This document shows positions 2,101 to 62,800 of a stretch of DNA of 64,000 bases, piece after piece. Location: NCBI GenBank assembly GCA_030248295.1, contig JASANH010000082.1, forward strand, positions 186,001 through 250,000. The letters run 5' to 3'. The translations under genes and the position numbers were made by a program. Source of the stretch: Mesodorylaimus sp. YZB2_4 (lineage: Eukaryota > Nematoda > Enoplea > Dorylaimida > Dorylaimidae). The notes beneath the pieces were generated by a model that saw only the letters and a program-made list of their open reading frames with translations, did no database searches and was not told where the DNA came from. Every line of letters begins with the position of its first letter. Within the stretch, counting starts at the first letter, position 1.

Positions 2101-5100
2101 TCACAATTGGTACAACTGATCGTGGGCTTCTTGCAACTTCTGCAACGAGTACTTGCTATGCGGCCTGCGCACTTCGGTACGTATCTCGGTGGGCGACGAT
2201 GCTGCATCGCCCAAGGAATGACGACTCGTCGAAGCTGACATCGAACTTCGTCCAACCGGTTCGTTATCATTCAGATATCGTTCCACCCTGAAACAAACAA
2301 CCGTGTATTCCACACACCTCAAATAAGGCCAAGATAACAAAAGTCTGGGGGGGACCATCGGAAGTGGCCGAGAGAAGACGCCAAGAATTCAGCGGCAAAA
2401 CGCCAGCATCGACACACCCGCGTCAAAAAATAAAAGATTGACGGAGATGACGTCTTTGGCACTGCGTCCTCGCCAACCCGCCCTGTTTCCTCGCTGCCTC
2501 TCTTCCAGGTCCGACCAACAATATCGGTTCTCAGCCGATACCGATAATTTAGATTTGCCTGTCAAGAGTTTTTGCGAGCATATGGCCTGTTGATAGTGAG
2601 TATGACGAGGAGCAGGGAGCTACGGATCCTTGATCAAAGAGTTCAGTGGCTAAGTCTGGGGCTAAATCGCAATCGCCATGACCATGACTTGTCTTGTTGG
2701 GATGCCCGCGATGGCGTCAAAGCAGGCTACTCTTAAAGACAAATGGCTGAGTGTGTGGCTAGGGTAAGGGAAGGAGGCGGGGGTTGGGTCCTGTATTATT
2801 ACTTGCATGGTTACAAAGGCCTCCTCCTGGCTTACTGCTAGTACATATACACCCAGAAGCAACAGAGTCCATCAGGCCCCTAGCACAATACAAACAAGGT
2901 TAGTATGCCTCAGAATAAAGGCAATGACTACAAATTATCACCGCGGTCCTAGCGTTCGACCTGGGGTGAGTTTTTTTAGAGACCGGGTTATTCTTTTCCC
3001 CTTCGTGCTCAGGGACGGGGACAGGCATGGCCCTCTTGGTTTTCCGAAGGAGATAACTTCGCTGGGGACGGACACGAGAAAAGCCTTTCCGGTTGTCCAA
3101 GTCTGCTCGTTCCTTGAAATATTCGAGAAACTTCATAAAGTTTGTCCTGCATTGAATCATTTGTCATCTATCATGTTTGTGGGTCGCTTATCTGGAAGTA
3201 AGAACAGGACGAATCCCCGATACATTTTTGCAAAGGCGGGAACGAGAATTGGGGATGGAGCCCCAGTCGAGCACTGCAGTCCTCGAAAAGTTGTGAACGG
3301 ATCTGACTTTGATTAATTATCCCTACCTCGAGTCTAACAAAATAAGTTTTGGAGGGTGCTGGCTCTCATGCAAGCTTCGAAGGTGTGCATGCGCTGCAGC
3401 TCTGCCTAGTTGCAGCGAGCATAATTTAACTACTGTACAATCCAATTTAAGTAGAGGCAACTTCGCCAGCTCACAGATAACTGGTTCTTTATTCAAGCAT
3501 TCAGACCCTGCCCATACGTGCTGGATGGCCATCGCCTGACAGTGTCTCATAGTTGATCCTAGAAGTGTCATGAGTAGCCTGACATCTGCGAAGAACAGCG
3601 AACAAGGATGTTATTTGGATGTTATGGGATTTTGCAATTTAGTTTTGGGCTTGTAAATTTATGCTTCCAGAATACTACAAATTGCTAGAGAAAGCTTGGC
3701 TTGCGGAATTAAAAATTGCATGTTTACGGAAAGGCAAAAATTTAAATTCCCCGCCACAAAATTTAAAAAATTATCGGTATTATCGGCTGATGATTGCACT
3801 ATCAGTTATCGGTCGGACCTTGGCCCCGTTTCACCACGTCTCCGTTCCTCCCTCCGTCCGTCCCAGTACGGATCCGTTAACAGAGGACGGACGGCTGGTG
3901 AAACAGGCCCCTGGTCTCTGTCAGACCACTTCGAAGGACACAGGAGAGCTAAGTAGCACCCAGTGGGATTAAATGCTGATTTTAGAGAAAAATGGGATTT
4001 TCTCATATAGATGCCACACTTTCTTCATCATTCCCAGCAGAACCGCGAAAAATATTAGTTGCTGATCCGGCTGATCCAGCAGTCAGATCGGATTTGAAAC
4101 CGATCCACCCATCGGATCGGTGGATCGGGCCATGCAGGGCAAAAAGTGCGCTGACGTGCATGAATGACAAAAATTGGCAAACCCTTAAACTGATGCGAAT
4201 TCTATCCGCAAGCCCCTTCCTAAGTCACCCGATCAGGGTTCACTCAAGAAGCGGAAAATGATTTTCCCTGAGTTTTCCACGTTTTCCAGACCAAAAATGT
4301 GATTTTTCCCCCGATTTTTCGCACATTGTCCAGCGACTACTAAATAAACTTCAACTAATTTTCTGACTTCCAGAATGATCAGCAGCTACATAAAAGGCAG
4401 GTGATCCGAAATTTATAACTTCAACATGCAGCCTCAGTTTTTCCTGATTTTGGCTCCAAAGTTCCCATTTTCCCAGGTTTTCCAGGCACTCCTCGCAATA
4501 CCTGACTTTTCCAGCCTTGTATAAACCCTGTAGATAAACGGGCACCTCCTGGGCTAGGTCGGCTAAAAAGTTGTAAGGGCCTCACTGTGCACAGATAACG
4601 GATACAAAATGGATTCCGCTAGAACGTGCAGTTATGACATTTTGTACAAAAAAAGCGAGAAACAGCCTCTTCCAAAAAGTACCCCAGCACCCGATCTTTC
4701 CCAAACTTGATCGAGAATGGCACACCATTTTGCCAATCGAAGCTTCCTCGGAAAAACCATTTTCCATACCTTCTGCTTTTCAGGTGCGCCTTCGCTACAT
4801 CATAGAACATGATCATCCTCGAATACCCCCTGAGAACCTTCAAGTAAACGGGGCTATCTTTATTTTAAGGACAAAATTTTGAACTATTAGCCATAGAAAA
4901 CGGCTGAAACACCATGGTTCACTGAGAGCGCATCAACCCTTGCATCTCAGGGCACACACCACCTAGGACCAGTGCCGTCCCACGCATGGAATTGCATTAA
5001 TATTTCAACTCTACGCAATCAATTAATGTATTCCGTGGTGGCCCCCTGTCAATCACCCGACATGGGTACATGAGTTTTTCACGCTAAATTAGGGTTCCAA

Positions 5101-6692: not shown

Positions 6693-8389
6693 CAAAATTC
6701 CAAAAATGCAACAACCAGAATCGCTAAAAACCTCCCGATCATGAATTGCTGATTCCCAAAAAATATTCGAACGTATGTCAAAAATTTTGATTTTGATTTC
6801 AACCTTCCACCAACACGAATGCAAGGAAGAATGCCACAATCAAAACCGCACACTCGCCGCCTGCGAATGGGTTACAGTAATAGTTTCAGATTCAGATTCA
6901 GACTCATATGGTGGTATCATTTGATTGGCTGAATACTTGTTGCGTAATTTGACTTTGTTCGCGGGAAAGGCGCGTCTGTTGCGTGCCTCGCCCATAGTTG
7001 ATCCACTCTGTGCCTCTGCCTACGGTTCATGAAACCGAATCTCTCAACTTTTTGAATTGCCAAAGCCGTTGAGCACTTTTTTTCGATGTTGAGGTCCTAC
7101 TTACGGCAGGAGTGAGGACTTGGTTGGTGCTACAAATCAAGAATTTTGTTAAACATTGACTCTTCAGGCTGAATGAATCTGATTGGAACTTTGTAGTCGA
7201 GGAAGAAAGGTACAAAAAGTCTAGTCTAACCTCCCATATCTTCAAACTGAGTCTAGTTTCCTCATAATAACGTTATAGGCCCATACTCTGTACACTCATA
7301 CTCAGCGTTTTTAAGCAGTATTTTAAATTCGCTGTTTTCTGGTCAAATTTGTGGACCCATGTTCTACAGTACAAGTGCATAAATAGGGTCCACACTGTAG
7401 ATGACGTTTTCGAGCGACATCTCCCGAACCGATTGCATCTCCCGAAATTTTGTGGAATCCCATCGTGGTATCTCCGATACTTGTCTCGCATATGGATTAG
7501 GGCAAAAAATTGTCGAAATCCATCAGGCGGCGCTTAGGTGGCGTCAAAAACCCTTTTTGAGGAATAAACTTCGTTTGAAACGAAACCGTATTTCTGTTGA
7601 GCGGCAAGAACCAGGCTAACAAATTTCACCGAGTATCGCCCCGGCTCTGGTTATTGTCTTCAATCGATCAATCAATGACGACATTTACCCCGATTATTGG
7701 AAGCGCGCCCAGATCACTGCCATTCCGAAACCTGGGAATAAAAATTCTGTCAAGTCGTATCGTCCAATCTCGCTGCTTTGTATTGTCTCTAAAATTTTGG
7801 AGCGGCATATGGATAAACTACTTCGCTCATATTTGTCATTGTCTCCAAATCAGCACGGTTTCTGCAAGCGGCGTGGCACGAATACTGCGCTAATATCTAC
7901 AACACAATTCATCCATGATTCTTTGAACTCGAGAAATTCAAAATTCGTTGTTAGAATATTCTTGGATCTCCAGAAAGCCTTCGATCGTGTGCCCCGCGTA
8001 TTATTATTAAATCGCCTAAAATCCGATCGTCGCATACCATCGAAAATTATAAGGTGGTTGGAATCCTATTTATCTGATCGATCTCAACACGCCGTAGTTG
8101 ACAGTTCTGCTTCTTCACCTGCGCATGTGTCCTCAGGCGTGCCCCAAGGCGAAGATTATTATTACGAAGATTCCTACCATCTGTTGCCAGTTACCCCGAT
8201 TAACGAGGAGGAATGGATGGGGCTGACGATTGGGAGCTTCATCACGATGGATCGACCGGAATGGCAGTATGTTATGCTCACGTACCGTCACATTTTGGAA
8301 TGGGTCTCGAGTCGGAGGTGAGTCAATACGAATTGTGCGGCTTCTGGCGATTCGAGGATGGCTTATACGGGCAAGTGCAATCGTTCCGC

Positions 8390-23144: not shown

Positions 23145-25770
23145 TTCCTCTCTTCGTCCAACCACCGCTCTTCCCTAATTTTATAAAGCTGGCGATAGCA
23201 GCCCGAATACGAACTAGGATAAGCCAGCTTAGTCCAAGAGAATTAGGCAATAATTTATTGAGCCTTCGGCAGCATCTTTTTTCCGTTGAAAATATAAATG
23301 AGCAGAAAAATCTTTAGTAATCTAATAAAACCGCCCAAGCCAACATGAACACACAAGATCTAGTCGGTAGGCAGGTAGTAGACCATCGCTTCGACACGCA
23401 TCGCCGACCAACGAACACCGTGAAAATAGGCGACAGACGGGATTGCGGAAAACTGGTCCACTGGCGCCAAGGGGCAGCCGCGCACTCGTTTGTCATAGGT
23501 TGTTTACAAATTGGCGCCAACACGGTCTTGAGCCTGGGGAGCAATAAGCACGGACGCGTGCGTTCGGCGCGGAAGAAAGCTTGCGAAGGCGACGAACCGG
23601 AAACGATGCCTGAGTGGACCACTCGAAAATGGCTAATATACACCAGGGTCGAGTTCGTAGTCGAAAAAAACTCGTGAAAACCATTTTCCTCTCGCAAAGC
23701 GTGTGCGAAAATCGATATAAAAAGAAAACGAGTGTAATTTCACGCTGCGAACAAGGAAAAGGGCATGAGTGTCGAGGTGAATGTGATTGAATTCGAATGG
23801 AGTTTAAAGAGTCTATTATCTTTTTTCGCCCATCCGGCTCAGCTTGTTCGAGAATAGATTCGATTCGATTCGATTCGACGAGCCCCCTCGTGCCGTCGTT
23901 TGCTTCACCTACATTTTTTAAATCTTTTCACTAAGGAAATATTTTTGCGAAAATAGACTAAATATACTTCTCTAAAATATGGGTTTTTAGTTTAGCGTGG
24001 TAAATTTCTATTGAGCAATTTTCGCCTAACAATTTGCCAAGACGCCCTACATCGCAAATTATCGCGATTCAAACCCATTTGAAACTAATTCCTTTTGGCG
24101 AGGTGTCGAATTGGAACGAGCGCTTGATGGTGATATATAGCAGAAAGTGACAAGACAGCTTGGAGGCCCGCGCACAAATAGACATTGAGCCCGTGGGAAA
24201 AAGCACGGCCAATTATCGCACACGAATCGGAGCATGTATTCCCCCAGTATTCGTTAATTGTCGATTTTTAAATTCCCGCCCTCAATTTATACTTCCTTAT
24301 CCAATCCAGTTGCAAGTGGACTGGCTGGATTGGACTTGACTATGACTGAACAGGAAACAGAATACAGCCTGATGCTGCCTCTGTTCGTCTCGCCACAACT
24401 TCTGCATTATATCGCCTAATCTCAGAGAATGGCAGATGCGAAGATTTGCGATGGAGATTAGCAAGATAAGCATCCGCAGGAAGAAGTTCCTTGGTCTAGA
24501 GGGCCCTGGTCAAACGCGGAGTTACACCAGTGTCTAACCGATGACGGGTGGTGGAAGACGGGCCATTGAAGATGATCTTCGGCCCCGACAACGGATTAGC
24601 AACAGACGTGCTTCCAATCGAGAGCAAACAAATGCCGACCCACCGCCGAGTTGAAGGCGCACGAATGACCAAACTGTCGACTCCTGCTCCCTTTGTTTAC
24701 CCTCTAAAAAGGGCCTAGGCGTTGGTGCTTAGAAATACTAAATCCAAACCTTCTCCCTAAAAATGGAATAAAAACCTTCCCCCTCTCCACAAGCTTGTCT
24801 ATTTGTAAGCCCTGACAATAGCCTTCGTAAACGAAATTCTGGCATGTCGAGGCAGGCTAAGAAGAGAACCACTGACAGCTCAGGTAGCCACGGCCCGCGA
24901 TCGCTCGCTCCGTCAAGGTGACCCGGAGTCATGACTGCCAACAGTGCTGGCAACTGATCGTGTGCCGATGCCTGTATGCTCGGTCGCACTGGTTTCGAAA
25001 CCATGGATGGACATGGGATGGCAGTGGTCTCAAATACACAACCTGAAGACTACTGTATGCCCGAATTTCCTGTCGCGGCAAATTTCTGCCAAGTTCGCCA
25101 TGACCTTTTCTGCTGCTCACTGATCATGCCGCCCAAAGTGGGTGGACAAGTGATTTTCGGGTTGACTTCTTAAAAAACGGGAACGTTTACAACCCAAAAC
25201 CACCTCCCTGAAACTCCGACCAAATGCAACCCGAAAAACGGGTTGGGTCTTGGGACCCAGTGTTGGACCCCTTTGAAACCTTGTAGCCTTACAGGATTTA
25301 CAATGCGAACTATCACTTACATCGTATGCTTGGCTTGCTCTAGAAGCCTTTTTTTCTTGCGATACGAGTTCTGGACTTGCCTTCTTCGATTTTCATTGAA
25401 TCAACTGTTTGGTGATCCTGGGGCCCGGGAAACTCCATAATATTTTCCTGCAGGAACTTCCAACCAACACGAAACCCAAACTGCACTGACTCAATTTCCC
25501 ACCTGCTCTGCCACCTGAACTAAAGTTAGTGTTGCTCAGTCCTCTCGCGTGAGCACGCTCAACCCCGCATCATCTTCCCAACATTGGCTAATTTGCCGTG
25601 GCCTAAGGTTTTAACCAACGAACGACAGTACTGTACGATTTGTCGTCCGTAGTAGCGGAGTCACTGGGGCGCAGGGGTGCCCAAGCACGTCCACATTCAC
25701 GGGGCGGTCTGCACGCTATAGGACGGACCTGCTGATGCTGTAAAGTCACTGAGCCACTTTACACTGCCTT
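23145..25770. other. Intergenic region upstream of srGAP
   Basis: There is no supported gene. A short ATTCG tandem array is at 23857-23880. A 110-codon frame at 23345-23677 and its antisense overlap each other without any recognisable domain. This stretch is presumed to contain the srGAP promoter and the MSP upstream region. Confidence 0.5.
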
Positions 25771-25781
25771 CACGTGGTCTC

Positions 25782-25789
25782 TATAAAAG
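25782..25789 (+). promoter_or_regulatory. TATA box of the MSP gene
   Basis: TATAAAAG lies about 100 bases upstream of the MSP start codon, in the context CTCTATAAAAGGGCCAC. It is the only good TATA match in the upstream region and has the right orientation. Confidence 0.6.
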
Positions 25790-25890
25790 GGCCACCCCCG
25801 CGCGGATCCAGTCATTCTGCTTTCGAGCGATCATCTGTGCGACCGAGTCCGATCCTCTCTCGTGTTCGATCAAGACCTCGTTCAGCGACC

Positions 25891-26262
25891 ATGTCGATCC
25901 CCGGCGACATCAAGACCGTGCCGTTCGACCAGTTGTGGTACAACGCGCCGTTCGACGAGTTCCTCAAGGTGCGCATTCGTCTGACGAACGGTGGCGTGCG
26001 ACGCATCGGCTTCCATCTGAAGAGCACCGTCGGTCCCGACCGCATCGAAATCGACCCGGCCAACGGCTGCCTGGACCCGAGCGAGACGACCACGCTGTGG
26101 GTCACCGTCAAACCATTCTCCGGCGCCGACACGTCGTCCGATCGCGTCACCATCGAGTGGACCGACTCCCCGGCCGGTGCCGCCAAGAAGTACAGCCGCG
26201 ACTGGTTCACCGGCGATTCCATCGTCCGCCGCAAGAACATGGCCCTCAAGTACAACGAGTGA
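25891..26262 (+). CDS. msp: Major sperm protein (MSP)
   Basis: A single-exon gene of 123 residues, close to the 126-127 usual for nematode MSPs. The start MSIPGDIKTVPFDQLWYNAP lines up with the MSP N-terminus (PPGDI.T.P...VFNAPYD). Conserved features follow: RRIGFHLKST, DPANGCLDP, DRVTIEWTDSPAGAAKKYSR and the terminal [12 protein letters not shown]. MSPs form an immunoglobulin-like beta sandwich that polymerises into filaments driving sperm crawling, and they also act as an oocyte maturation signal. GC-rich third codon positions, an intronless structure and a TATA box fit a strongly expressed sperm gene. No second intact copy is in the window, but a 3' fragment of a paralogue lies in the ARIH2 intron at 28376-28478. 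Confidence 0.93.
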   Translation: MSIPGDIKTVPFDQLWYNAPFDEFLKVRIRLTNGGVRRIGFHLKSTVGPDRIEIDPANGCLDPSETTTLWVTVKPFSGADTSSDRVTIEWTDSPAGAAKKYSRDWFTGDSIVRRKNMALKYNE

Positions 26263-27521
26263 TCTCGATCGTGATGACCTCGTGCTCGTCTACTGATTCT
26301 CACCTCGTGCCTCCTTGTCTGCTGCCATGTAAAAGATGAAAAGCGTTGGCGTGCTCCCTGATCAGACAAGGCGTAAGCATGAAGGAAAGGGGAACCAAGT
26401 CACCAAAGCCCCTCTGATGGGGCAGCAGGCATTTCCCACCATGCCTTCAGACAGAGCTGGTCGAATCCCTGGTTGAGGTCGGACATGGGGCCGATGGGAG
26501 CCGACATAGTACGTTATGGTCGCACTTGAATATTAGCCAGGTGCAGTTCACAAAATAGTCTTCTTTGCCCGTCGCATCAGCGTTCCCCGCCAGGTGTCAC
26601 TGCAGTCGCGCTGGAGACGGCGCTTATCTCTGCGCCCGTTCGATCCCCGTTCGTGCAATTTGTTTTGGAGGCGTATTTGAGCCGTGCCAATCCATCGGGT
26701 CATGTGTTTTCTGGTTTGGACTAGGTTTCTCGCAGGACAGTGGCCAGGTGGGATGGTCGACGAGGAGTGCCCCCTCGGTGCTAGTGTGGTTGGCTGGGCG
26801 TCGTGGCGGGCGCCTGCAACCTAGCTACTAGGGGGCCGGGACTGGTGGACGGTTTGAGGTTGGGAGCCCTCCGGCGCGCCTGCCTACGTTGACCGAGCGT
26901 CCGCACCAAGCACGCCGTCAATATGGGAGGCGGGGAGGAGTCCTCGACTGCCAGGTTGTCCAAGGATCGCTGTACCGGCCGAGGCCAGAAATGGAGCAGG
27001 CAAAAGGCGACGCGGCGTGACAGTGGTGGGATCGCGCTTGCGAGCAGACGGTTCTTCGGAGCCCAGCCGATACAATCGGACCCCGTTCTTTTGCACTCGG
27101 ATCGTCCATGACGGTAAGCTCGCTCGATGATGACAGGACGGAGCTTCTTATGGACGGATAATTGGTTATCGTCATCCTTTCAACACTTATGATTAGACCA
27201 GTCCGTCCAACACGCGCTCCCATCCGGCTTCTCCTCACGTCACCACTTCCGTCATCCACATATCGACCATTTCCACTCACGTTCAGCTGCATCTTGGACG
27301 CAGCCATTACTCACGTGCACGAAACGCCGTTTACTCTGACGTCAATAGAAATTCACAAGACTGCACAATTCCACACGTACAAGCCATTGGACACGGGGAC
27401 AGCCATGAACACAAGGTGGTCACTCAACTCTCAATGCTTACATTTTGTACACGAATGAATGCAGAGGGAAATATTACAAAATCAAAAAACACCAAAGCCC
27501 AACCTCGTCGTTTATTTCACC
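26263..27521. other. Intergenic region between MSP and ARIH2
   Basis: About 1.2 kb separate the MSP 3' end from the ARIH2 stop codon. Several overlapping frames exist on both strands at 26565-27310, but none carries a recognisable motif. No repeat family member was found. Confidence 0.5.
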
Positions 27522-37882: not shown

Positions 37883-39149
37883 ATGCCTTATATTTCAAGT
37901 AGTGAGTAGCCTTTTTTGCCTTTTTTGAGAAATCGACCTTGAAAACTTTGTTCTTTTTTTTAGCTGGTGAATTGCGTGAATCGCAAACACCGCTCACTCC
38001 CGGCTGGTTCTGGAATTTGATACTTGGAATCTGGAGCTTCTTCTATTTGCTGTAAGTTATTCCAAACGAAGTTTTCTAATGACGTTTTCTATCTAGGGTT
38101 TCGTTTTTCAGATTTTACACATTGATATCGGTAAGTCTACTGTATCTCCTGTACTGTACTGCATGTTTTGTTTCTTAGGTTTAGGGGATGTACGGGTTTC
38201 TAGACTGCGTGAAACCTCTGGGCATATGATTGGAAGCAAGGCCTACTGACTGGCAAGTGACAAGTTAGGGGGAACAGATGGGATTCGCGTCGGGTCACTG
38301 TCGTACGGCAGTTTGTAGTATTTTCCACAGCCTGTTCTTTTCAGCCCGGTTATACGAAAAAGGACGAAAAGGATCGGGAACAACGACGAGGATACGGAGG
38401 CGGTGGTGGGAGCGGTCAAGGAGGACCCGGAGGTGGCGGAGGGTGAGTGGACCATTTATGCCTTATCTCTATAAGATAGACTTTGCCTTGGTTTATAATG
38501 GACACCCGCGAAATTTCCACCGGCTGTTTTCCCGCTGAAATCGAAATGCTTCTTATGTTTTTACTGTGTCTATTCCTACTCCAGTTTTACCATATCACCG
38601 AAAGTTAAGCATCTCACTCGAGGATGAAGGGACGCATTACACAAGAAATAATTTTGACTAGAAGCTTGCTGTGAAATACGGAGATCTAAGACTTTCCCAA
38701 AGTCATTCCATTTCGTCCCTGGTCCAGGTGTCACCGCACCTCGGCCGGAGGTATGATCGCAGCCTTTGAAGTTTACTGCAGGTTATGACATCGTGCTGCC
38801 TTACATCCGAGGGTGATTGATTGTCCCATCTGATGACAGCAAACTGGTCGTGAGTTGGTTTACTGTCATGTTCTGTCTGATCAATGAGCTTTATCCCTGC
38901 CCTGTTGAGATTCTAGTGCCACCCCAGAAGGTCTCCCAAGCCACTGGCATTTTACATACTTGGTGTCCCTCCTGATTCATGCATAATGAATCATTAGTCT
39001 TTTTCAGTACGGTAGCAATAGCGCTATGTTGGCTTGCTATGATACCAATAAAATCTTATTTTAGCCGTAGGCCGATCGGACGATTAGGAGGCGGAGGTGC
39101 TGGGGCGCCCGAATGCCCACCGATGGCTGGAGGAGGATGAGGTCGGTAA
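37883..39149 (+). CDS. selk: Selenoprotein K (contains selenocysteine)
   Basis: Five exons (37883-37901, 37964-38051, 38112-38130, 38345-38442, 39065-39149) encode 102 residues including one selenocysteine. The start MPYISSTGELRESQTPLTPG matches the SELENOK N-terminus (MVYIS.G...DSRSQSP). A single membrane segment follows (FWNLILGIWSFFYLLFYTLI), then a basic Gly-rich tail (KKDEKDREQRRGYGGGGGSG) and the C-terminus PPMAGGG-TGA-GR-TAA. The in-frame TGA at 39138-39140 aligns with the Sec codon of the family (PPPMAGGUGR). SELENOK is an ER membrane protein linked to ERAD and to DHHC6 palmitoylation. A SECIS lies 57 bases past the TGA. Exon 1 could end at 37898 or 37901; the frame is kept either way, and I chose the stronger GTGAGT donor. 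Confidence 0.92.
39138..39140 (+). other. UGA selenocysteine codon
   Basis: TGA in frame, followed by GGT CGG TAA. The residues on both sides match the conserved end of SELENOK, and a SECIS follows. A standard gene caller would stop here and lose the last three residues. Confidence 0.9.
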
Positions 39150-39179
39150 ATGGCGACACGCATTCGCGGTTGTCGCCAT
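39150..39179 (+). other. Hairpin directly after the selenoprotein K stop
   Basis: ATGGCGACA (39150-39158) and TGTCGCCAT (39171-39179) form a perfect 9-bp stem. The inner CGC/GCG adds three pairs after a GT bulge and leaves an ATTC loop. It starts one base after the terminating TAA, 9 bases after the Sec codon. Confidence 0.6.
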
Positions 39180-39196
39180 AGTCTAAAGTCGTGACG

Positions 39197-39270
39197 GCGC
39201 CTGAAACCGTTGGTGATGCGAACATGCTCAACTCCGACTCGGAGGGTACGTTTGCTGATGCGTCAGGTGT
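39197..39270 (+). promoter_or_regulatory. SECIS element, form 2
   Basis: All SECIS parts are present in order. Helix I pairs GCGCCTGA (39197-39204) with TCAGGTGT (39263-39270), 8 bp with G-U pairs. The non-Watson-Crick quartet is TGAT (39214-39217) against TGAT (39256-39259). Helix II pairs GCGAAC/GTTTGC and TGCT/GGTA with one A-C mismatch, 11 layers in all. The unpaired AA (39230-39231) sits in the apical bulge. An extra mini-stem CTCCG/CGGAG with loop ACT makes it form 2. TGA-to-AA spacing is 13 bases, in the normal range. Confidence 0.88.
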
Positions 39271-39770
39271 CCGAAACGACCGTGCTTACTCGTACCTGTT
39301 CAATATGTAAATGTACTCCGTGCTCATATTGTATGGATTATTTTGGTCGTAGAGGTAGGACTTGATTTTATACTGTAGATTGCTATGCGCTGTGTTTTTG
39401 CCACTAGATGCGTACATACAAGCTTACTTTGTGCCCATTTTATTGTACCAGTGCATATCCTATTTCGACTTGTGTCCATCTACGCAGTATGCACGAATTG
39501 CGAGGAGACATACCTGCTGTTCGGATGCAATATCGTGGTTGGGGTGTGCACTGACTGCGCCCTTGGAAATGAAATATGTTCGATGCAACAGTGAGGCAGA
39601 CGTGTCCCGGGCCTACGTACTGTACAGTGTGCTTGTAATGGAGTCGCCCCGCGCGGATATGCAGTCTGGCCAAAGGGCTCGTTATCAGTGTTATTATGTG
39701 CAGCTGTATAGCGAGGCAAGGCAAAGTGTCAGGTTATAATGAGAAGCCCCTAATGACATTAGGACAGTGG

Positions 39771-41234
39771 TTACAGCTTGAAATCTCTGTGTGTGTCCAA
39801 CAAGCTAACATGGCGGTCCTTGTCCGGCACCCGATCCGTGTCACTGATCTCGATGAGCGGGATGAGCAGGTGTCGACTCAGCTCCATCAACTCGTTAACA
39901 TTGGCCAGCAGGGACTGGTTGTCGGCGTTGCTCCCGCTACGGCTGCCGTTGTCGGGCGAGGTGTCGTTGGATCGACTGAGACAACTGCTGACCGATGTGG
40001 CGGCGATGTCCAACCCCTCATTATCACCCAGTCGGTTCGGGTCCCGGTGCATTTCGATGGGCGCGATCAGAGCGTTGCTGGCCATCTCCGCCTTGCACTC
40101 CCCCTTGACACTGGCCCTGGACTGTCGTCGGCAGCCGCCTTTTCTCAATCCGCACAGGGCCAGGATCTGGGACCTGCGTTTGGCCCTTATCAGCTCGTAG
40201 TTCTCTTTGATCTTCCTGTTCAGAGCGATGTAGATGAGGGGGTAGCCCAGGCAGTTGATGTAGGGCAGCAGGTGGGTCAAGTAGGCCAAGGCCAGCGTGA
40301 CAGGATTACGGTCGGTCACTTTGTACTGGGGTCTGGAGTTGGTGTAGAGAAGCATGACCCAGAAGGGGGTCCAGCATAGTAGGAAGAAGGAGACCAGGCC
40401 GAGAACAGTGCGCGCCACTCGCCACGAATTGACTAAACTGCGTGCACGCCACGAGTGGCGCCTGACATACTGCCATAGGAGCAGATAAAACAATGTGAAC
40501 GCGGTGGCCGGCAGGACGTAGCCGATGACGAACGTGTAGAGTATGAAGTCGGACACCCGTCCGTAGGCCCTGTTCTGGTCTTTGTGCATTTGGAACATGC
40601 ACTTGAGGGCCAAGTACTTGACCACGGACGTGCTATTCGAGTCGGGTGGCTGTTCGAAGACGACCACGTAGTGCAGCCCGCCGTACACGTAGACGGGTGC
40701 CATGAGCACGATCAGGACACCGGCTGCCAATACGACCACGCTGAATCCGGCTCGCAAATCATCGGGGAAGGCGCCGCACTGGCGTCTGCACACGACCATG
40801 TAACACGTCCCACTCAGGGCCATCAGTATGAAAGGGGCGAAGAATTTGTTGAGTAGCTCGGAGCACAAGTACAACTTGCACATGATGGACGAAGGGAGCA
40901 GCGTCCACTGGCCGTGCAGGGCGTCGTCGATCGTGAACGGCATGAAGACCAGGACCACGATGTCGATGACACACAAGACCAGGATGTACAGCTGCACGTT
41001 GCGGGGTGGCTCTTGGGAGCGGTTCCTGATCAAGGACAGAATGACCGATACGGCCCACATGTTGCCCATGATGCCGCCCAGGAAGAGTAGGATGTAGAAC
41101 GTGGCCAGAAAGTAATTGAATAAGCCGAGGGGGCTCAGTGGGATTTGATTCTCGTACGTCTTGTTATTAGCGAATGTCAGATGGGTCAAATAAGGGTGCA
41201 GTGTTTGGTAGGGGTATATGGCAACCACAGCCAT
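39771..41234 (-). CDS. Rhodopsin-like (class A) peptide-type GPCR
   Basis: A single open exon of 487 codons. Seven membrane segments can be placed at roughly 40-68, 79-102, 125-150, 163-186, 228-256, 276-298 and 312-338. Class A marks are the GN in TM1 (57-58), Asp91 in TM2, the TM3/ECL2 cysteine pair (119 and 212) and CWTP at 287-290. TM3 ends CRR instead of DRY and TM7 has YPLIY instead of NPxxY. The N-terminus is short without a signal peptide, and the Ser/Asn-rich tail is about 145 residues. It resembles nematode neuropeptide-receptor-type proteins (somatostatin/allatostatin-like branch); the ligand cannot be inferred. The Met at 41234 is the first in frame before TM1. It is intronless in a window where every other well-identified gene except MSP has introns. 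Confidence 0.85.
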   Translation of the reverse strand: MAVVAIYPYQTLHPYLTHLTFANNKTYENQIPLSPLGLFNYFLATFYILLFLGGIMGNMWAVSVILSLIRNRSQEPPRNVQLYILVLCVIDIVVLVFMPFTIDDALHGQWTLLPSSIMCKLYLCSELLNKFFAPFILMALSGTCYMVVCRRQCGAFPDDLRAGFSVVVLAAGVLIVLMAPVYVYGGLHYVVVFEQPPDSNSTSVVKYLALKCMFQMHKDQNRAYGRVSDFILYTFVIGYVLPATAFTLFYLLLWQYVRRHSWRARSLVNSWRVARTVLGLVSFFLLCWTPFWVMLLYTNSRPQYKVTDRNPVTLALAYLTHLLPYINCLGYPLIYIALNRKIKENYELIRAKRRSQILALCGLRKGGCRRQSRASVKGECKAEMASNALIAPIEMHRDPNRLGDNEGLDIAATSVSSCLSRSNDTSPDNGSRSGSNADNQSLLANVNELMELSRHLLIPLIEISDTDRVPDKDRHVSLLDTHRDFKL

Positions 41235-42573
41235 GGCGATGGGTCAGCGTCTTCTCCAGTCGGCTCAAGGCGATGTACTGGCGCAGTGAACAGAGCTAGC
41301 TCGGATCGCAATAAATATACTTGATTGAAGGCGAATAAGATAATGTATTTATTGAGAAAAAGCCGAGCACTGGCCGCCTTTGATCAATGTAATAACTAAA
41401 GGCAAAAAGGTGCGTATGTGTGATGTAGGCACGGATACGCCATCAAGACCCTCTTCCTACGACTTACTCACGCCCCTTCGAGTTCCAGTTTTTTATCCAA
41501 TGCCCGTCATTCCTTATCTAGTCAACACTAGAAAAAGCAATGAGAACGGCTTTCTAAGCTCGACGGGCGCCCGAACAGACAGCTTGAAAATGGCTTTTTC
41601 CAAATCCATAATGGGCCAAAAGGCAAGAAAAATGATTCCATCAAGTCGAGAACGTAAGCCAAACTCGAATACATAATAACCTCACAACAGCCCGCACACC
41701 TAGCCCAGCCAAAAAAGTCCCATTTCTCTGATAGTTCATTGCCAACATGGCAACGTCCCCTTTCAAGGCCCACCCATTTTTTCAATATCTTTATTCCTAT
41801 TTGCAATTTCTCCGCGTACCATCTCCAAGCCTGACCACGGAAGAGGCTGAATTTGTTTCTTTGCGAACGCGGGATGGGATGGCTAATAAATTCAGGTGGC
41901 TCCGTTGGGGATTGGTCACAGTACGGATATGGACTGGGAGTGTCAGCTCGCCCTCATATCCCTCCACGCACGCTTATTCAGGCAAGGTGTGCCCAGGACG
42001 AGACAAGGTACGACCGAGCAAAGGACATGAAATCGAATAGTCCGCCTTTCTGTCCGTCAAAGGCATGTCGGGACACTAAACACCATATTTATACAGCTAA
42101 TAAAAAAGTGAGCACAATTTGAAGCTGCCAACTTGCAGGCTCGGCCATTTGAGAGATGCATCTTCTCACACTCTCGTCAGTCCTGAACAGTAGGCAGTCC
42201 ATGTAAGGCAGCCAACTCTACGTGATGCAAAAACGAGTCTGGATTCACAAAAAAACACGTGCGAGTAAATTGAGTACGGCCCACGCAGCCTCCCGCCTCA
42301 GGTCTATCGACTTTAATCAAAGTAAAAACGTCAGCAAATTTTTCATAAACTCAATTTTCATTTTCCTAGACTCATCATTTACGAGTCTGGAGTCGATGTT
42401 TTTTGTATTGCCAGGCCTCATTACTGAACTGCCAACCCGAGTTGGGATGGAATGATAAGAGGGCGCACGGAATAACACGGGCATTAAACTAAGGAAGTGC
42501 CAAGCGTGTCTAATTAGCCTTTCATTATAGCCTTCTAAAACGAGCCCACATTGAATAGACTTTTGTTTTTATT
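41235..42573. other. Intergenic region upstream of the GPCR
   Basis: This spacer holds no supported exon. It should include the GPCR promoter and the 3' flank of the small secreted protein gene. Several short open frames around 41380-42122 are on both strands and lack motifs. Confidence 0.45.
42568..42573 (-). terminator. Polyadenylation signal AATAAA
   Basis: AATAAA on the minus strand immediately after the TAG of the small secreted protein gene (TAG AATAAA). It supports the chosen last exon. Confidence 0.55.
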
Positions 42574-50674: not shown

Positions 50675-52684
50675 TTACTTCTTCTGAGCGCTGAGTTGTT
50701 TTTGTAGATCCCTGACGATAGGCCAATAGACTTCGGCTGATGCTCTCATTCCCCAAACGAAGTCCAGATGATTGAAGTCAGTCAAATAAGTGTTGCCGAC
50801 CAGATTACTCAATTTGGGGATCAGATTTTCCACATCTTTTGGATCGGCTAACCAGTCTGACTGGCCCCAGAACAGATGAATTGGCACGCTAATTTGGCTG
50901 ACATCGTATAAAGGCGGTGTGTCCTTGAAAGATATTCATGAGGTGCGGTGAGGAGCATTGAATACACTTCTCACCGCCTCAATTGAGACCGAATTACGGA
51001 CAATGGTCAGCCTTTCCCGTCTTAGCTTCCCCTATTTTCACTCTCGCTAGCTAATGGCACAGGCTAGAGCTTCTGAACTTTTCCGTGCCTCAGGCCTCTT
51101 GGAGCACTCTGAAGGCAGACTCGCCTTCAGACCATGTGGATGCCACATAACTGGAAGTCCTGGGCGGGAGGTGTCGGGTGCGCTATCTAGGTTCGCTGCT
51201 TACACTGTGAAGAGAGTTTCAAACAGGCTGGCAGGTCGTGCCGGGCCATTTCGTCAAAGCTAAACAAATACTGTACCTGTCCATATTTTTGCCTATTGTC
51301 ACGCCGTCCATAATCAAACATATCGAACTTTCCACTATTCACCATTTGCCCATAATGAACGATGGTCTGCGTCGATGAACCGGCTGGTGTGTGTGCCACA
51401 TAAACTGGCATGCGTGTCTGAAACCCAGTCTCTATCTGTTACCCTCATTGGACCCTCTGCCGCATGGCACGAAAATGTCCTACACATCCGAGAACTCACT
51501 TACTGTATTCAACTGATGCGAATCTGGACCGCAGAGCAAAAAAGCCACATCATCACAGACCAAGTTGCTGACTGGATTGTTGCAGAAGTACTTGGCCAGA
51601 ACATGCATGAAAGGAGTGCTTGGTGCAAAGTCATCGTAGCCAACCAATTTCGCAAGTAACTGCAACAATGTCTGTTCCACTTCCACACTTCCGATCCATG
51701 ACAATAATACTCACATCGATTTCCGAGGTGAATGGTGCCATATATTTGATCGGACCATTGATATTCTTGACGGTGGCGACTGGAGCCAAGGCATAAAAAG
51801 TTTTGACCTAAAATGGCATTATTTCCAATCCTAGGTGGCATGGTCATTTGCCAATTGTACCTTCTTTTCGAGATTTTTATTCCTTGAGAATGCTGCGAAT
51901 GCTGCCGTGGTGCCCATCGAATGGCCGATGTAATACAGGCTCGACGCCTTGCTAACATTCAGTGCGAAGTTGATCGTGGCTGGCAGATCGTGCTGGGCCA
52001 TTTCGTCAAAGCTAAACAAATGACCATAGTTGTACTTGTGCACCCCAGCCTCATGTGCTGCAGCCCTGATTCAAGAAATGCATACCTGAATTCCCAAAAG
52101 GCGTGCTAAAAAGACACGCACATTGGTGAGTACGCGGAGTCGCCAGGTTAGCTTCGAACTTACATTCTTAGGATTCAGCGTCACGTGCTTCGACCCGTAC
52201 ATGTTCCCTCGGAAGTTGCCCAGCCAGACATCGAACCCGTTGTCGGCAAAGACGAACCCTGCAGCTTCGTTTGGCAGATTATTGATCCAGTCGTACGAGC
52301 TGCAGATCAGACGGGCTGCACTAGCTGGCTGGCCTGCGACCATCAGCGTCCTACCTGCTCTCCAATCCGTGCTGGAAGAAGACGACTGGCTTTGACTTTG
52401 ATTGACTGACTTGGTCTCGCCCATGCGGGATGCGGAATATGGTCAGGATATAGCCATCGTCCGTGGTCACGTCGTACTGTTCAACGGGGTATCCCCAACG
52501 TTGGATAATCTGGGCCTGCAATGGTGCACAGTCTGTACTCCGCCGGGTCGGCACGGCAGTGTGTACTCACGCATGACATCCAGATTTCTGGGTCCTGGCT
52601 TCCCGCCTTCTCGTCACCACCATTTGCCACTGGCGCAGTCCAGCTGGCTCCGATAGCCGCGGCAAGAATAACGAGCTTGATCAT
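50675..52684 (-). CDS. lipl: Lysosomal acid lipase-type (LIPL) enzyme, intact copy
   Basis: Nine exons (52684-52571, 52515-52355, 52320-52164, 52105-52086, 52011-51861, 51807-51715, 51671-51504, 51417-51277, 50923-50675) join in frame to 417 residues. The signal peptide is [15 protein letters not shown], followed by [20 protein letters not shown], the classic lipase pattern. The oxyanion-hole region is [10 protein letters not shown], and [20 protein letters not shown] and GSKHVTLNP follow. The nucleophile Ser is in GHSMG, the acid Asp in LADPKDV and the His in FNHLDFVWG. This enzyme hydrolyses neutral lipids, typically in gut lysosomes or secreted; nematode LIPL proteins act in fasting lipid mobilisation. 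A 20-nt microexon (HAFWEF) is conserved in the duplicate. Intron 2 by my reading is only 34 bp; its exact acceptor is the least certain site. Confidence 0.9.
52086..52105 (-). other. 20-nt microexon of the lipase gene
   Basis: CACGCCTTTTGGGAATTCAG with a TTTTTAG acceptor and GTATGC donor. It supplies HAFWEF plus part of the next Ser, the segment between NPKN and [12 protein letters not shown]. The frame fails without it. The same microexon is in the duplicate at 57905-57924 (start CGCGCC). Confidence 0.8.
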
Positions 52685-56603: not shown

Positions 56604-58502
56604 TCATCGGCATCGATACATGGATATGTGCAACAATGACGATACCCCGTCATGCAAGTAATTTTTAAACATTATTGTATATTCAATACGACAGAGCAGC
56701 CTCACTTGACTTTGTCTGATAGTACGTAGCTGCGATTGAATATCGCGGACAATAGGGAAAAAAACTTCGGCCGAAGCTCTCATCCCAACAACAAAGTCCA
56801 GGTGATTGAAATCAGTCAAATACGTGTTGCCGACCAGATTACTCAATTTGGGGATCAGATTTTCCACATCTTCCGGATCGGCTAACCAGTCTGACTTGGG
56901 TCAGAACAGATAAATTGGCACGCTGATTTGCCTCACATCGTACTTCGGCGGTGTGACCTAGAAAGGTCTCGAATAGATACTGTCAAATGCGCTGAGTACA
57001 AAACCGAACTGGCAGTTAGCCGTCGGGCCAAACTAGTGACCAAACAGGCTGGGGAAAGGTAGTACTTGTCCATATTTTTGCTTATTTCCGCGCCGTCCGT
57101 GATCGAACATTTCGAATCGTCCACTGTTTACCATTTGACCATATTGGGCGACAGTCTGCGTTGATGCGCCAGCTGGTGTGTGGGCCACATAAACTGGCAT
57201 GCCGGTCTAAAGTCAAATATGTACGCGCTTTTGGATCATTCGCAGCATGGGCACGCACTAACATGGACATGTATACAACGTTGTCTCTTACCGTATTAAA
57301 CTGGTGCGATTCCGGACAGCAGATCAAAAAGGCCACATCATCGCAGACCAAGTTGCTGACTGGATTGTTGCAAAAGTACTTGGCCAGGACATGCATGAGA
57401 AGAGTGCTTGGCGTGAAGTCATCGTAGCCAACCAATTTTGCAAGTAACTGCAACAATGTCTGATCCACTTTCACATAAGAGATTTATGCCAGTGACAACC
57501 TACATCGATTTCCGAGGTGAATGGTGCCATATATTTGATCGGACCATTGATATTCTTGACGGTGGCGACTGGAGCCAAAGCATAAAAAATTTTGACCTTA
57601 AATGGCATTATTTCCAATCTTAGGTGGCATGGTCATTTGCCAACTGCATCTTCTTTTCGAAATTTTTATTCCTTGAGAATGCTGCGAATGCTGCCGTGGT
57701 GCCCATCGAATGGCCGATGTAATACAGGATCGAAGCCTTGCTAACATTCAGTGCGAAGTTGATCGTGGCTGGCAGGTCGTGCTGGGCCATTTCGTCAAAG
57801 CTATAAAAAGACCTCTCGCTGGGCCACACTTTGTACTTGCGCACCCTAGCCAGCCTTATCTCCTGCAATTCTGATTCAAAGAGACATGCATACCTGAATT
57901 CCCAAAAGGCGCGCTAAATAGGCATGCACATTGGTGAGTACGCAGAGCTGCCAAGTTAGCTTCGAACTTACATTCTTAGGATTCAGCGTCACGTGCTTCG
58001 ACCCGTACATGTTCCCTCGGAAGTTTCCCAGCCAGACATCGAACCCGTTGTCGGCAAAGACGAGCCCTGCAGCTTCGTTTGGCAGATTATTGATCCAGTC
58101 GTACGAGCTGCAGATCAGACGGGCTGCACTAGCTGGCTGGCCTGCGACCATCAGCGTCCTACTTGCTCTCCAATCCGTGCTGGAAGAAGACGACTGGCTT
58201 TGATTTTGATTTTGATTGACTGACTGACTTGGTCTCGCCCGTGCGGGATGCGGAATATGGTCAGGATATAGCCATCGTCCGTGGTCACGTCGTACTGTTC
58301 AACGGGGTATCCCCAACGTTGGATAATCTGGGCCTGCAATGGTGCACAGTCTGTACTCCGCCGGGTCGGCAAGGCAGTGTGTACTCACGCATGACATCCA
58401 GACTTCTGGGTCCTGGCTTCCCGCCTTCCCGTCACCACCATTCGCCACTGGCGCAGTCCAGCTGGCTCCAATAGCCGCGGCAAGAATAACGAGCTTGATC
58501 AT
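56604..58502 (-). pseudogene. Acid lipase pseudogene, tandem duplicate
   Basis: It has the same exon order as the intact copy, from the signal peptide at 58502 to a C-terminus near 56760. Exon blocks include 58502-58389, 58333-58163, a 20-nt microexon, [16 protein letters not shown] with GHSMG, and [15 protein letters not shown]. Two clear lesions exist. First, exon 2 has 10 extra bases within 58199-58230, so the reading continues [12 protein letters not shown] instead of [10 protein letters not shown]. Second, an in-frame TGA at 56901-56903 replaces the Trp codon in [12 protein letters not shown], before the catalytic Asp and His. The original stop codon is also lost. The TATA box is mutated (TATGAAAGG). 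These changes fit a recently dead copy, though transcription is not excluded. Confidence 0.88.
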
Positions 58503-61265: not shown

Positions 61266-61429
61266 TACGCCTATCAGACTGTTGCAAGATCAAAGGCTGT
61301 TCTGGAGCGGCTGCGGTGGTGTAGTGGTGGTGTAGCTAGTCGCAACTAGCCGCCCGCACTAGCCGCTCCCGGATTGCTTTGATTGTGGGGTATCGATCTC
61401 GTTTGTCCGAAGAGAAGCGGAATCATTGC

Positions 61430-62800
61430 GCGCTCGAGGTGCTCCAGGGATATATGGGTTGACTGGCCCTATCTTACGTGGCATTGCACCAATAATTCCT
61501 TCTTCTCTAGCATCGCTATGCAATCGACCATTGCGAGACTGCCTCTCCCATCTGCCTGGAAGGAAGCAAATTCTGTTGCAGTTCCAAAGTCTGGCGATCA
61601 TCACAATTCTTCTAACTACTGTCCAATATCGTTGCTGCCGATATTATCGAAAGTTATGGAGAAGCACATAGAGCGCCTTTTAAGTTCTCAATTGCAGCTT
61701 TCTCCAAACCAACGTGGTATTCGCTCACGTCATTCGACTAATGGCGCCCTGATCCGGTCGTCGCAGTGGATTTTGGAGGGCCTAAACAGTTCGACGTCTA
61801 AATGTGTTGGTGGAGTGTTCTTTGACTTGAAAAAAGCGTTCGACCGTGTCCAGCATAATAGACTGTTAGAAGTGCTGGAACAGTATCATCATCTTCAACC
61901 TCGTCTTCTGCAGTGGTTGGCTTCATATCTCGAAGGTCGCACCCAACTCACTGTCGTGGGAAATGCAACTTGCCGTTTCAGTACCGTCTGGTGTGCCGCA
62001 GGGTTCTGTCCTGGGGCCGATCTGTTTGTCGCGCTGATTGATCCGCTGCTAGTGAAAGTTGACAAAACGCAAGCTTGCATTTTTCGTTTGGATTTGAAGG
62101 CTCCTCGCCAAATCCCGCAGATTCACCTGTGTGGTTCGCCGATTCAGTTATCTGATACGATATCATACTTGGGGGTCACGCTGTCTTCGAACATGCATTT
62201 CGCAGAGCACTGTCACGAAGTTGCAAAATCAGCCAGAGGGATGTTCAGAAGAAAGTTTGGGAAGTTCGCAAGTAAAATTCTGAGAGTGGTCTTCACGCAG
62301 TGTGTCCTCCCGAAGCTCGAATATTGGATGCTGCGCTTGGTCACCAACCCATTCTAATCTAATCCAAGATCTTGAAAGTGTGCTCCCCGATCAGTTCTAT
62401 TAACGATTGGAGCAAGTCTTATTAAGAGGCTATGGCAGAATTGGGTTTTTCTACGTTGGAGACACGCCGTAATCAGTTGAAGGTAATTCCGTTCTACAAA
62501 TATTACCACGGTCATGCCTGCTATCCGAATAATCGCTTCATCCACACTTCGGACTCAGGGAGGCGCTTCAGCGAGCAGTTAGTCAAAGAGCACTTCCTCG
62601 AAATTCCAGTTGTTTTCAAAAGCACATACGCGCAATGCTTCGAATATTCTGTTTTAAAGAATTGGAACACTGACAAGATGCTCAGTGATATTGCTCTTGG
62701 TTCATTCGCTGCGTCTGGATGTTTCTCAGGTGATTTTTTGGACATTCAGCTCGTTTTATCGTTCTTTGTTCACATGTTCTCTGCCGTTCAAAAGCACTGA
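61430..62800 (+). mobile_element. CR1/Jockey-like LINE fragment, reverse transcriptase degraded
   Basis: Reverse-transcriptase blocks are clear: LPSAWKEANSVAVPKSGDHH, SSNYCPISLLPILSKVMEKH, LSPNQRGIRSRHSTNGALI and FFDLKKAFDRVQHNRLLEVL. A frameshift then replaces the SGVPQGSVLGP stretch (present in another frame near 61985-62020). The sequence jumps from ALIDPLL to VKVDKTQACIF, deleting the YADD catalytic segment. A C-terminal block (STLETRRNQLKVIPFYKYYH) follows after a further break near 62360. The sequence differs from the copy at 7.6-10.3 kb, so it is a second lineage or an old copy. It is not active. Confidence 0.8.

Follow-up and report, generated by a model that had tools for sequence, protein, structure and literature searches.

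SELENOK (SelK) is a membrane protein of the endoplasmic reticulum (ER) with DHHC6 and p97 as partners; its usual C-terminus is GUGR, and two glycines precede the selenocysteine (Sec) of the human protein. The form-2 SECIS is defined by helix I, an internal loop, a UGAN/NGAN quartet, a helix II of about 10-13 layers, an apical AA and a mini-stem. Among nematodes, C. elegans has tRNA-Sec, eEFSec, SepSecS and SBP2. A 2014 study by Otero is said to have described nematode SBP2, including that of C. elegans, as devoid of the Sec incorporation domain (SID), and Sec-using nematodes as having only a Cys form of SPS2. Thioredoxin reductase (TrxR) is the sole selenoprotein of C. elegans according to PMC6155587 and PMC2375036, and the latter states that nematodes have a Cys homologue in place of SelK. 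Furthermore, PMC4561486 states that SPS-Cys is confined, among animals, to nematodes.

The DNA analyzed belongs to Mesodorylaimus sp. YZB2_4 (Nematoda; Enoplea; Dorylaimida; Dorylaimidae), assembly GCA_030248295.1, with a size of 145 Mb. The window, that is, the whole stretch of 64,000 nt under analysis, corresponds to positions 186,001-250,000 of the forward strand of JASANH010000082.1 (contig C152 in our numbering), and positions are counted from its start. SELENOK is found at 37883-39149 on the plus strand, as five exons with GT/AG borders whose joined reading gives 102 codons followed by TAA. The predicted product is MPYISSTGELRESQTPLTPGWFWNLILGIWSFFYLLFYTLISPGYTKKDEKDREQRRGYGGGGGSGQGGPGGGGGRRPIGRLGGGGAGAPECPPMAGGG-U-GR (102 residues). 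The last exon ends in CPPMAGGG-TGA-GGT-CGG-TAA, in agreement with the earlier note, which had read it as MAGGG-UGA-GR-TAA, and shows a near-C-terminal UGA followed by GR and the stop codon (Table 1). The joined protein matches Pfam PF10961 (SelK_SelG) in residues 2-98 with an E-value of 1e-13 and 52.1 bits (cut-off 23.3), which assigns it to the family, and the best match in a sequence search against solved structures was no better than E 0.2. The claim that standard callers truncate the gene holds in that a UGA taken as stop loses 3 of the 102 residues, and in no other sense. As in animal SELENOK, the protein shows a short N-terminus, one hydrophobic stretch, a basic Gly-rich tail and a third-from-end Sec before GR, with a SECIS in the 3' UTR; however, three glycines precede the Sec instead of the two of human SelK. 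The single match of a genome-wide PF10961 search, L011, scored below the threshold (19.4 bits) and was rejected as a second copy, being low-complexity sequence with stops; the same search missed the short exons of the window SELENOK, and therefore it does not demonstrate a single copy. A single long minus-strand frame at 39771-41240, tail to tail with SELENOK, encodes a rhodopsin-type 7TM receptor.

Table 1. Features of the SELENOK locus of Mesodorylaimus sp. YZB2_4, in window coordinates.
Feature	Position	Strand	Basis
Exon 1 (ATG, MPYISS...)	37883..37901	+	GT donor 3' of exon; joined frame open
Exon 2 (hydrophobic stretch begins)	37964..38051	+	AG/GT borders, joined frame
Exon 3 (19 nt; hydrophobic stretch ends)	38112..38130	+	AG/GT borders, joined frame
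Exon 4 (basic, Gly-rich)	38345..38442	+	AG/GT borders, joined frame
Exon 5 (Gly-rich tail, PPMAGGG-U-GR; TAA 39147-39149)	39065..39149	+	joined frame, Pfam match
Predicted Sec UGA, third codon upstream of the true stop	39138..39140	+	computed position; SECIS downstream; Sec machinery in genome
12-bp hairpin, candidate SRE-like element, directly 3' of the stop, starting 9 nt past the UGA	39150..39179	+	-16.9 kcal/mol
Form-2 SECIS in 3' UTR (helix I, internal loop, quartet, helix II, apical AA, mini-stem)	39196..39271	+	fold, scanner, shuffles, model without SelK (E 0.0018)
SECIS core between quartet strands; flanks GUGAU ... AA ... CUGAUG	39214..39259	+	CTGATG invariant in six aligned elements

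The SECIS starts 55 nt after the UGA, and all the parts that the earlier note had listed (helix I, quartet, 11-layer helix II, apical AA and mini-stem) are found where it had placed them. When 39150-39275 is folded without constraints (z -2.66 for this segment as a whole), helix I is formed by 39196-39204 with 39263-39271 (9 bp), and helix II and the mini-stem are also present. The quartet consists of UGAU 39214-39217 and UGAU 39256-39259, helix II of 10 pairs and one A.C mismatch, the apical AA is at 39230-39231, and the mini-stem CUCCG/CGGAG at 39232-39236/39240-39244; together with the internal loop, the element thus has every part of a form-2 SECIS. A custom scanner, which requires UGAN ... 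AA ... NGAN with paired helices, scored it -31.1, the best of 11 matches in the window (six on the plus and five on the minus strand). When the SELENOK 3' UTR was shuffled 5000 times with dinucleotides preserved, two of the resulting sequences reached an equal or better score, and one equally good match arose in 2.56 Mb of shuffled window. Since this rate implies many chance SECIS-like sites in a 145 Mb genome, gene context matters, and the score alone would not convince us without the SelK gene beside it.

A covariance model of helix II and its flanks was built within the genome from the SECIS of three TrxR genes and SPS2, leaving out SelK. SelW/Rdx12 was also excluded, because MAFFT misplaced its apical region in the alignment. 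The sole match of the model in the window (both strands, E<=10) was 39210-39263, in the right register, with 21.5 bits and E 0.0018 (E-values are rough), and this result, with those of the scanner and shuffles, bears out the claim of a SECIS beyond chance. In 12 other loci, the model found the four training elements and those of the Rdx loci L025 (26.3 bits), L026 (26.3 bits) and L023 (20.5 bits), and did not find that of L024; its noise is represented by two sites of L020, with 12.8 and 11.9 bits (E 0.41 and 0.71). Rfam SECIS_1 (RF00031) did not recognize the SELENOK element, either in a search of the gene region with E<=10 or in one of the window at the gathering threshold. Across five other SECIS of this genome, it passes that of SPS2 (36.8 bits; cut-off 35), remains below the cut-off for two TrxR elements (29.8 and 27.4 bits) and gives no match for the third TrxR element and that of Rdx L025. 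The covariance-model check that had been proposed for the SECIS thus had a mixed outcome, with a match from the in-genome model and none from the Rfam one. The latter misses likely nematode SECIS elements, a point of relevance to surveys that used it and reported no SECIS. In relation to eukaryotic form-2 SECIS (GUGA_AA), the SELENOK element has the same quartet (UGAU/UGAU), AA and mini-stem, and differs in the lack of a SECIS_1 match and in the CTGATG at its 3' quartet strand, which is common to all six aligned SECIS (SelK and five other UGA genes). A G precedes the 5' UGA in two of the six, SelK and TrxR C147; a G in this place is noted for genes of nematodes and zebrafish in PMC2375036, and the GUGA form for sponges and algae in PMC3473315.

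Absence of the Sec machinery from the assembly was the main ground on which the earlier note was ready to give up its reading; tRNA-Sec, eEFSec, SepSecS, SBP2 and a UGA-containing SPS2 are all present, and this ground therefore falls away. The tRNA-Sec is found on contig C75 with 76.4 bits (cut-off 47), and ARAGORN names it tRNA-SeC, with anticodon tca; the same search in 14 control genomes gave a match in all 14, above the cut-off in five. A second, sub-threshold match was discarded, as ARAGORN names it tRNA-Leu. On contig C3, eEFSec is a single frame of 608 amino acids whose best PDB matches are the solved eEFSec 5izk and 7zjw (E about 7.5e-166), far above EF-Tu, and SepSecS is found as seven pieces on contig C64, each above the cut-off. 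The assembly contains 12 L7Ae matches, and two pieces on contig C8 read as SBP2 (L039, about 116.0-118.4 kb and upstream, minus strand). When joined with upstream exons, this reading matches SBP2 and no other PDB sequence at E<=0.001 (E 8.6e-34). The alignment falls into two segments: the RNA-binding part matches residues 636-756 of the solved SBP2, and a second one, outside it, matches residues 505-564 with LDSSxPxxxKGKQRE (29.1 bits, i-E 8.6e-6). We take this second motif to be the SID, a difference from C. elegans SBP2, which is reported to be devoid of it. A PF08433 search of the assembly did not find PSTK; its two matches were a KTI12 and a weakly scoring kinase of 210 amino acids, presumably AK6-like.

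The genome carries several UGA/SECIS genes beyond SELENOK, and the earlier note understated the case. Including SelK, there are nine UGA loci, or eight if L026 is an allele, in a count drawn from the SelK, SPS2, TrxR and Rdx models, with SelT covered through the Rdx model and families such as GPx and MsrB outside it. SPS2, on contig C283, shows a UGA at the catalytic place (RLTNLSDLRG-U-GCKVP). The model recovers it in four pieces, none of which reaches the cut-off set for the whole protein, as expected of exons, and the first exon matches the solved selenide, water dikinase 1 (E 2.3e-8). Four TrxR loci (L016, L017, L018 and L019) comprise three with Sec, which end in NCUS, KCUS and ACUG before the stop, two of them thus with CUS instead of CUG, and a Cys-Cys TrxR on contig C45 (L018), which ends in ECCPA. 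The latter was kept as control, and scanning its gene strand gave no SECIS. At L017 the scanner gives a weaker second match, and at L019 its second match (3894-3937, -24.8) was taken as SECIS instead of the best one (4211-4262, -27.3), because it is nearer to the UGA and shows the CTGATG of the other elements, a choice made after seeing those. The TrxR count leaves out contig C11, which has two weaker TrxR-model matches. Another match, C33 (L020), was set aside as a glutathione reductase (GR), judging from both of its ends. All four Rdx loci of SelW/Rdx12 type (L023, L024, L025 and L026) show an in-frame UGA and a SECIS-like fold; L025 and L026, which share 97.6% identity over 2051 bases, may be alleles. 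In the PDB, the entry nearest to the L025 exons is C17orf37, presumably Rdx12/MIEN1, followed by SelW, and these exons pass the SelT/SelW/SelH model; the Cys before GGU in L025 is predicted from a splice acceptor.

Directly after the SELENOK stop codon, the sequence is predicted to form a hairpin, and only 14 of 42648 sampled 30-nt windows fold equally well. According to PMC4561486, SRE stem-loops near Sec codons promote readthrough and are found in all UGA-containing SPS genes studied; the SelK hairpin, known from its predicted fold, is likewise a stable stem-loop near the Sec UGA, although it is located wholly 3' of the stop codon. With offsets counted from the first UGA base, we compared the best 30-nt fold at offsets 3-19 with 1000 shuffles, in a test devised post hoc and on six Sec genes that include paralogues. 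Shuffles as good as the real sequence numbered 0 for SelK, 1 for TrxR C147, 3 for TrxR C1b and, as a weaker signal, 25 for SPS2, with no clear signal in TrxR C1a (144) and SelW/Rdx L025 (200), and no signal in the controls (Cys TrxR 250, GR stop 536 and EFSEC stop 589). Against the 2240 real TGA sites of the window, SelK reached 0.0018 and the other seven from 0.0036 to 0.063. Fisher values were 4e-8 for eight genes and 1.4e-5 for five without SelK, both post hoc and treating near-copies as independent. Stable hairpins in four of the six tested Sec genes, with the best-folding 30-nt window beginning 9-13 nt past the UGA, suggest that predicted folds of this kind may act as a second recoding signal beside the SECIS.

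Altogether, we consider it very probable that the locus is a functional nematode SELENOK whose UGA is read as Sec through the form-2 SECIS and the Sec machinery, translation being deduced from the sequence. The ribosome would decode the UGA, which precedes the true stop by three codons, as Sec because the SECIS of the 3' UTR would recruit SBP2, eEFSec and Sec-tRNA-Sec; the hairpin just 3' of the stop may assist by disfavouring termination, and the product would cross the ER membrane once and carry a Gly-rich tail, with Sec close to its C-terminus. We consider it very unlikely that the UGA is a plain stop, the SECIS a decayed remnant and the product a Sec-less SelK ending in MAGGG: the GR and TAA right after the UGA preserve the usual SelK end, the SECIS core is intact, shares CTGATG with other UGA genes and is found by a model that had not seen SelK, and the genome carries the principal genes of the Sec pathway. 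Such a protein would nonetheless lose only three residues, and it would fit both the lack of an Rfam SECIS_1 match at SelK and the report of nematode SelK as a Cys protein (PMC2375036). Readthrough without Sec that needs nothing but the hairpin at 39150-39179, a mechanism put forward for the hymenopteran SPS1-UGA, could appeal to the strength of this hairpin 9 nt past the UGA and to the readthrough elements described in PMC4561486; however, the hymenopteran genes of that source have no SECIS, while the SelK one is present and intact, and further UGA/SECIS genes are found in the genome, and we regard such readthrough as extremely unlikely.

We give just as little credence to a non-nematode contig, derived from contamination or from a misplaced piece of another animal. 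The Sec gene set does differ from that of C. elegans, and no SL1 leader RNA was found by a family search, run without positive control, or with a 22-mer allowing up to 2 mismatches. SL1 is not universal in Nematoda, and we infer, without a tree, that the lineage lies outside the well-known SL1-using groups. Against a foreign origin, a major sperm protein (MSP) reading at 25753-26262, about 12 kb from SELENOK, scores 112-114 bits to four solved MSP and at most 31 to VAP-A, and the assembly contains 133 matches at E<=0.001 to the nematode cuticle-collagen N domain (PF01484). None of these was seen on C152 itself; the contigs that carry them include C1, C3, C8, C44 and C75, on which TrxR, eEFSec, SBP2, an Rdx locus and tRNA-Sec are found as well. 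The presence of nematode MSP and cuticle collagens supports the nematode identity that the earlier note had assumed.

As a Sec-decoded gene, SELENOK is ordinary in anatomy and mechanism, and its host is unexpected; the interest resides in the ancestral-looking Sec set of Mesodorylaimus sp. YZB2_4. This nematode has tRNA-Sec, eEFSec, SepSecS, SBP2 and a Sec TrxR in common with C. elegans. The two differ in that UGA is found here in SelK, SPS2, the Rdx loci and three TrxR, and TrxR is the sole selenoprotein of C. elegans (PMC6155587 and PMC2375036). As one of several UGA/SECIS genes, SELENOK indicates that the lineage retained a larger share of the ancestral animal Sec system than did C. elegans. 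The statement of PMC2375036 that nematode SelK is a Cys protein does not hold for this species. A UGA at the SPS2 catalytic place in one nematode means that SPS-Cys is not phylum-wide, and does not contradict the statement of PMC4561486. The literature matches listed, judged by title and start of abstract, include no report of a nematode with Sec-SelK, and we do not claim priority.

We lean towards a reading in which this is an early-branching nematode, probably from before the Sec losses, with a largely ancestral set of Sec-SelK, Sec-SPS2, Sec Rdx12/SelW, three Sec TrxR and a SID-bearing SBP2; SelK and SPS2 would then have changed from Sec to Cys, and SBP2 would have lost its SID, inside Nematoda and not at its base, and the hairpins would be a second recoding signal. 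A nematode with Sec-SelK and Sec-SPS2 lets the Sec-to-Cys changes be placed on the tree, and allows asking if they coincided with losses elsewhere in the Sec gene set and with the shortening of SBP2.

Elsewhere in the window, a metazoan SRP RNA gene is found at 26793-27091 (230.5 bits), and reverse transcriptase fragments at 7620-8321 and 61383-62357. Furthermore, 51264-52442 and 57020-58298 show two alike sets of readings about 5.8 kb apart, likely a local duplication, in which one minus-strand pair is nearly identical and lipase-like by eye.
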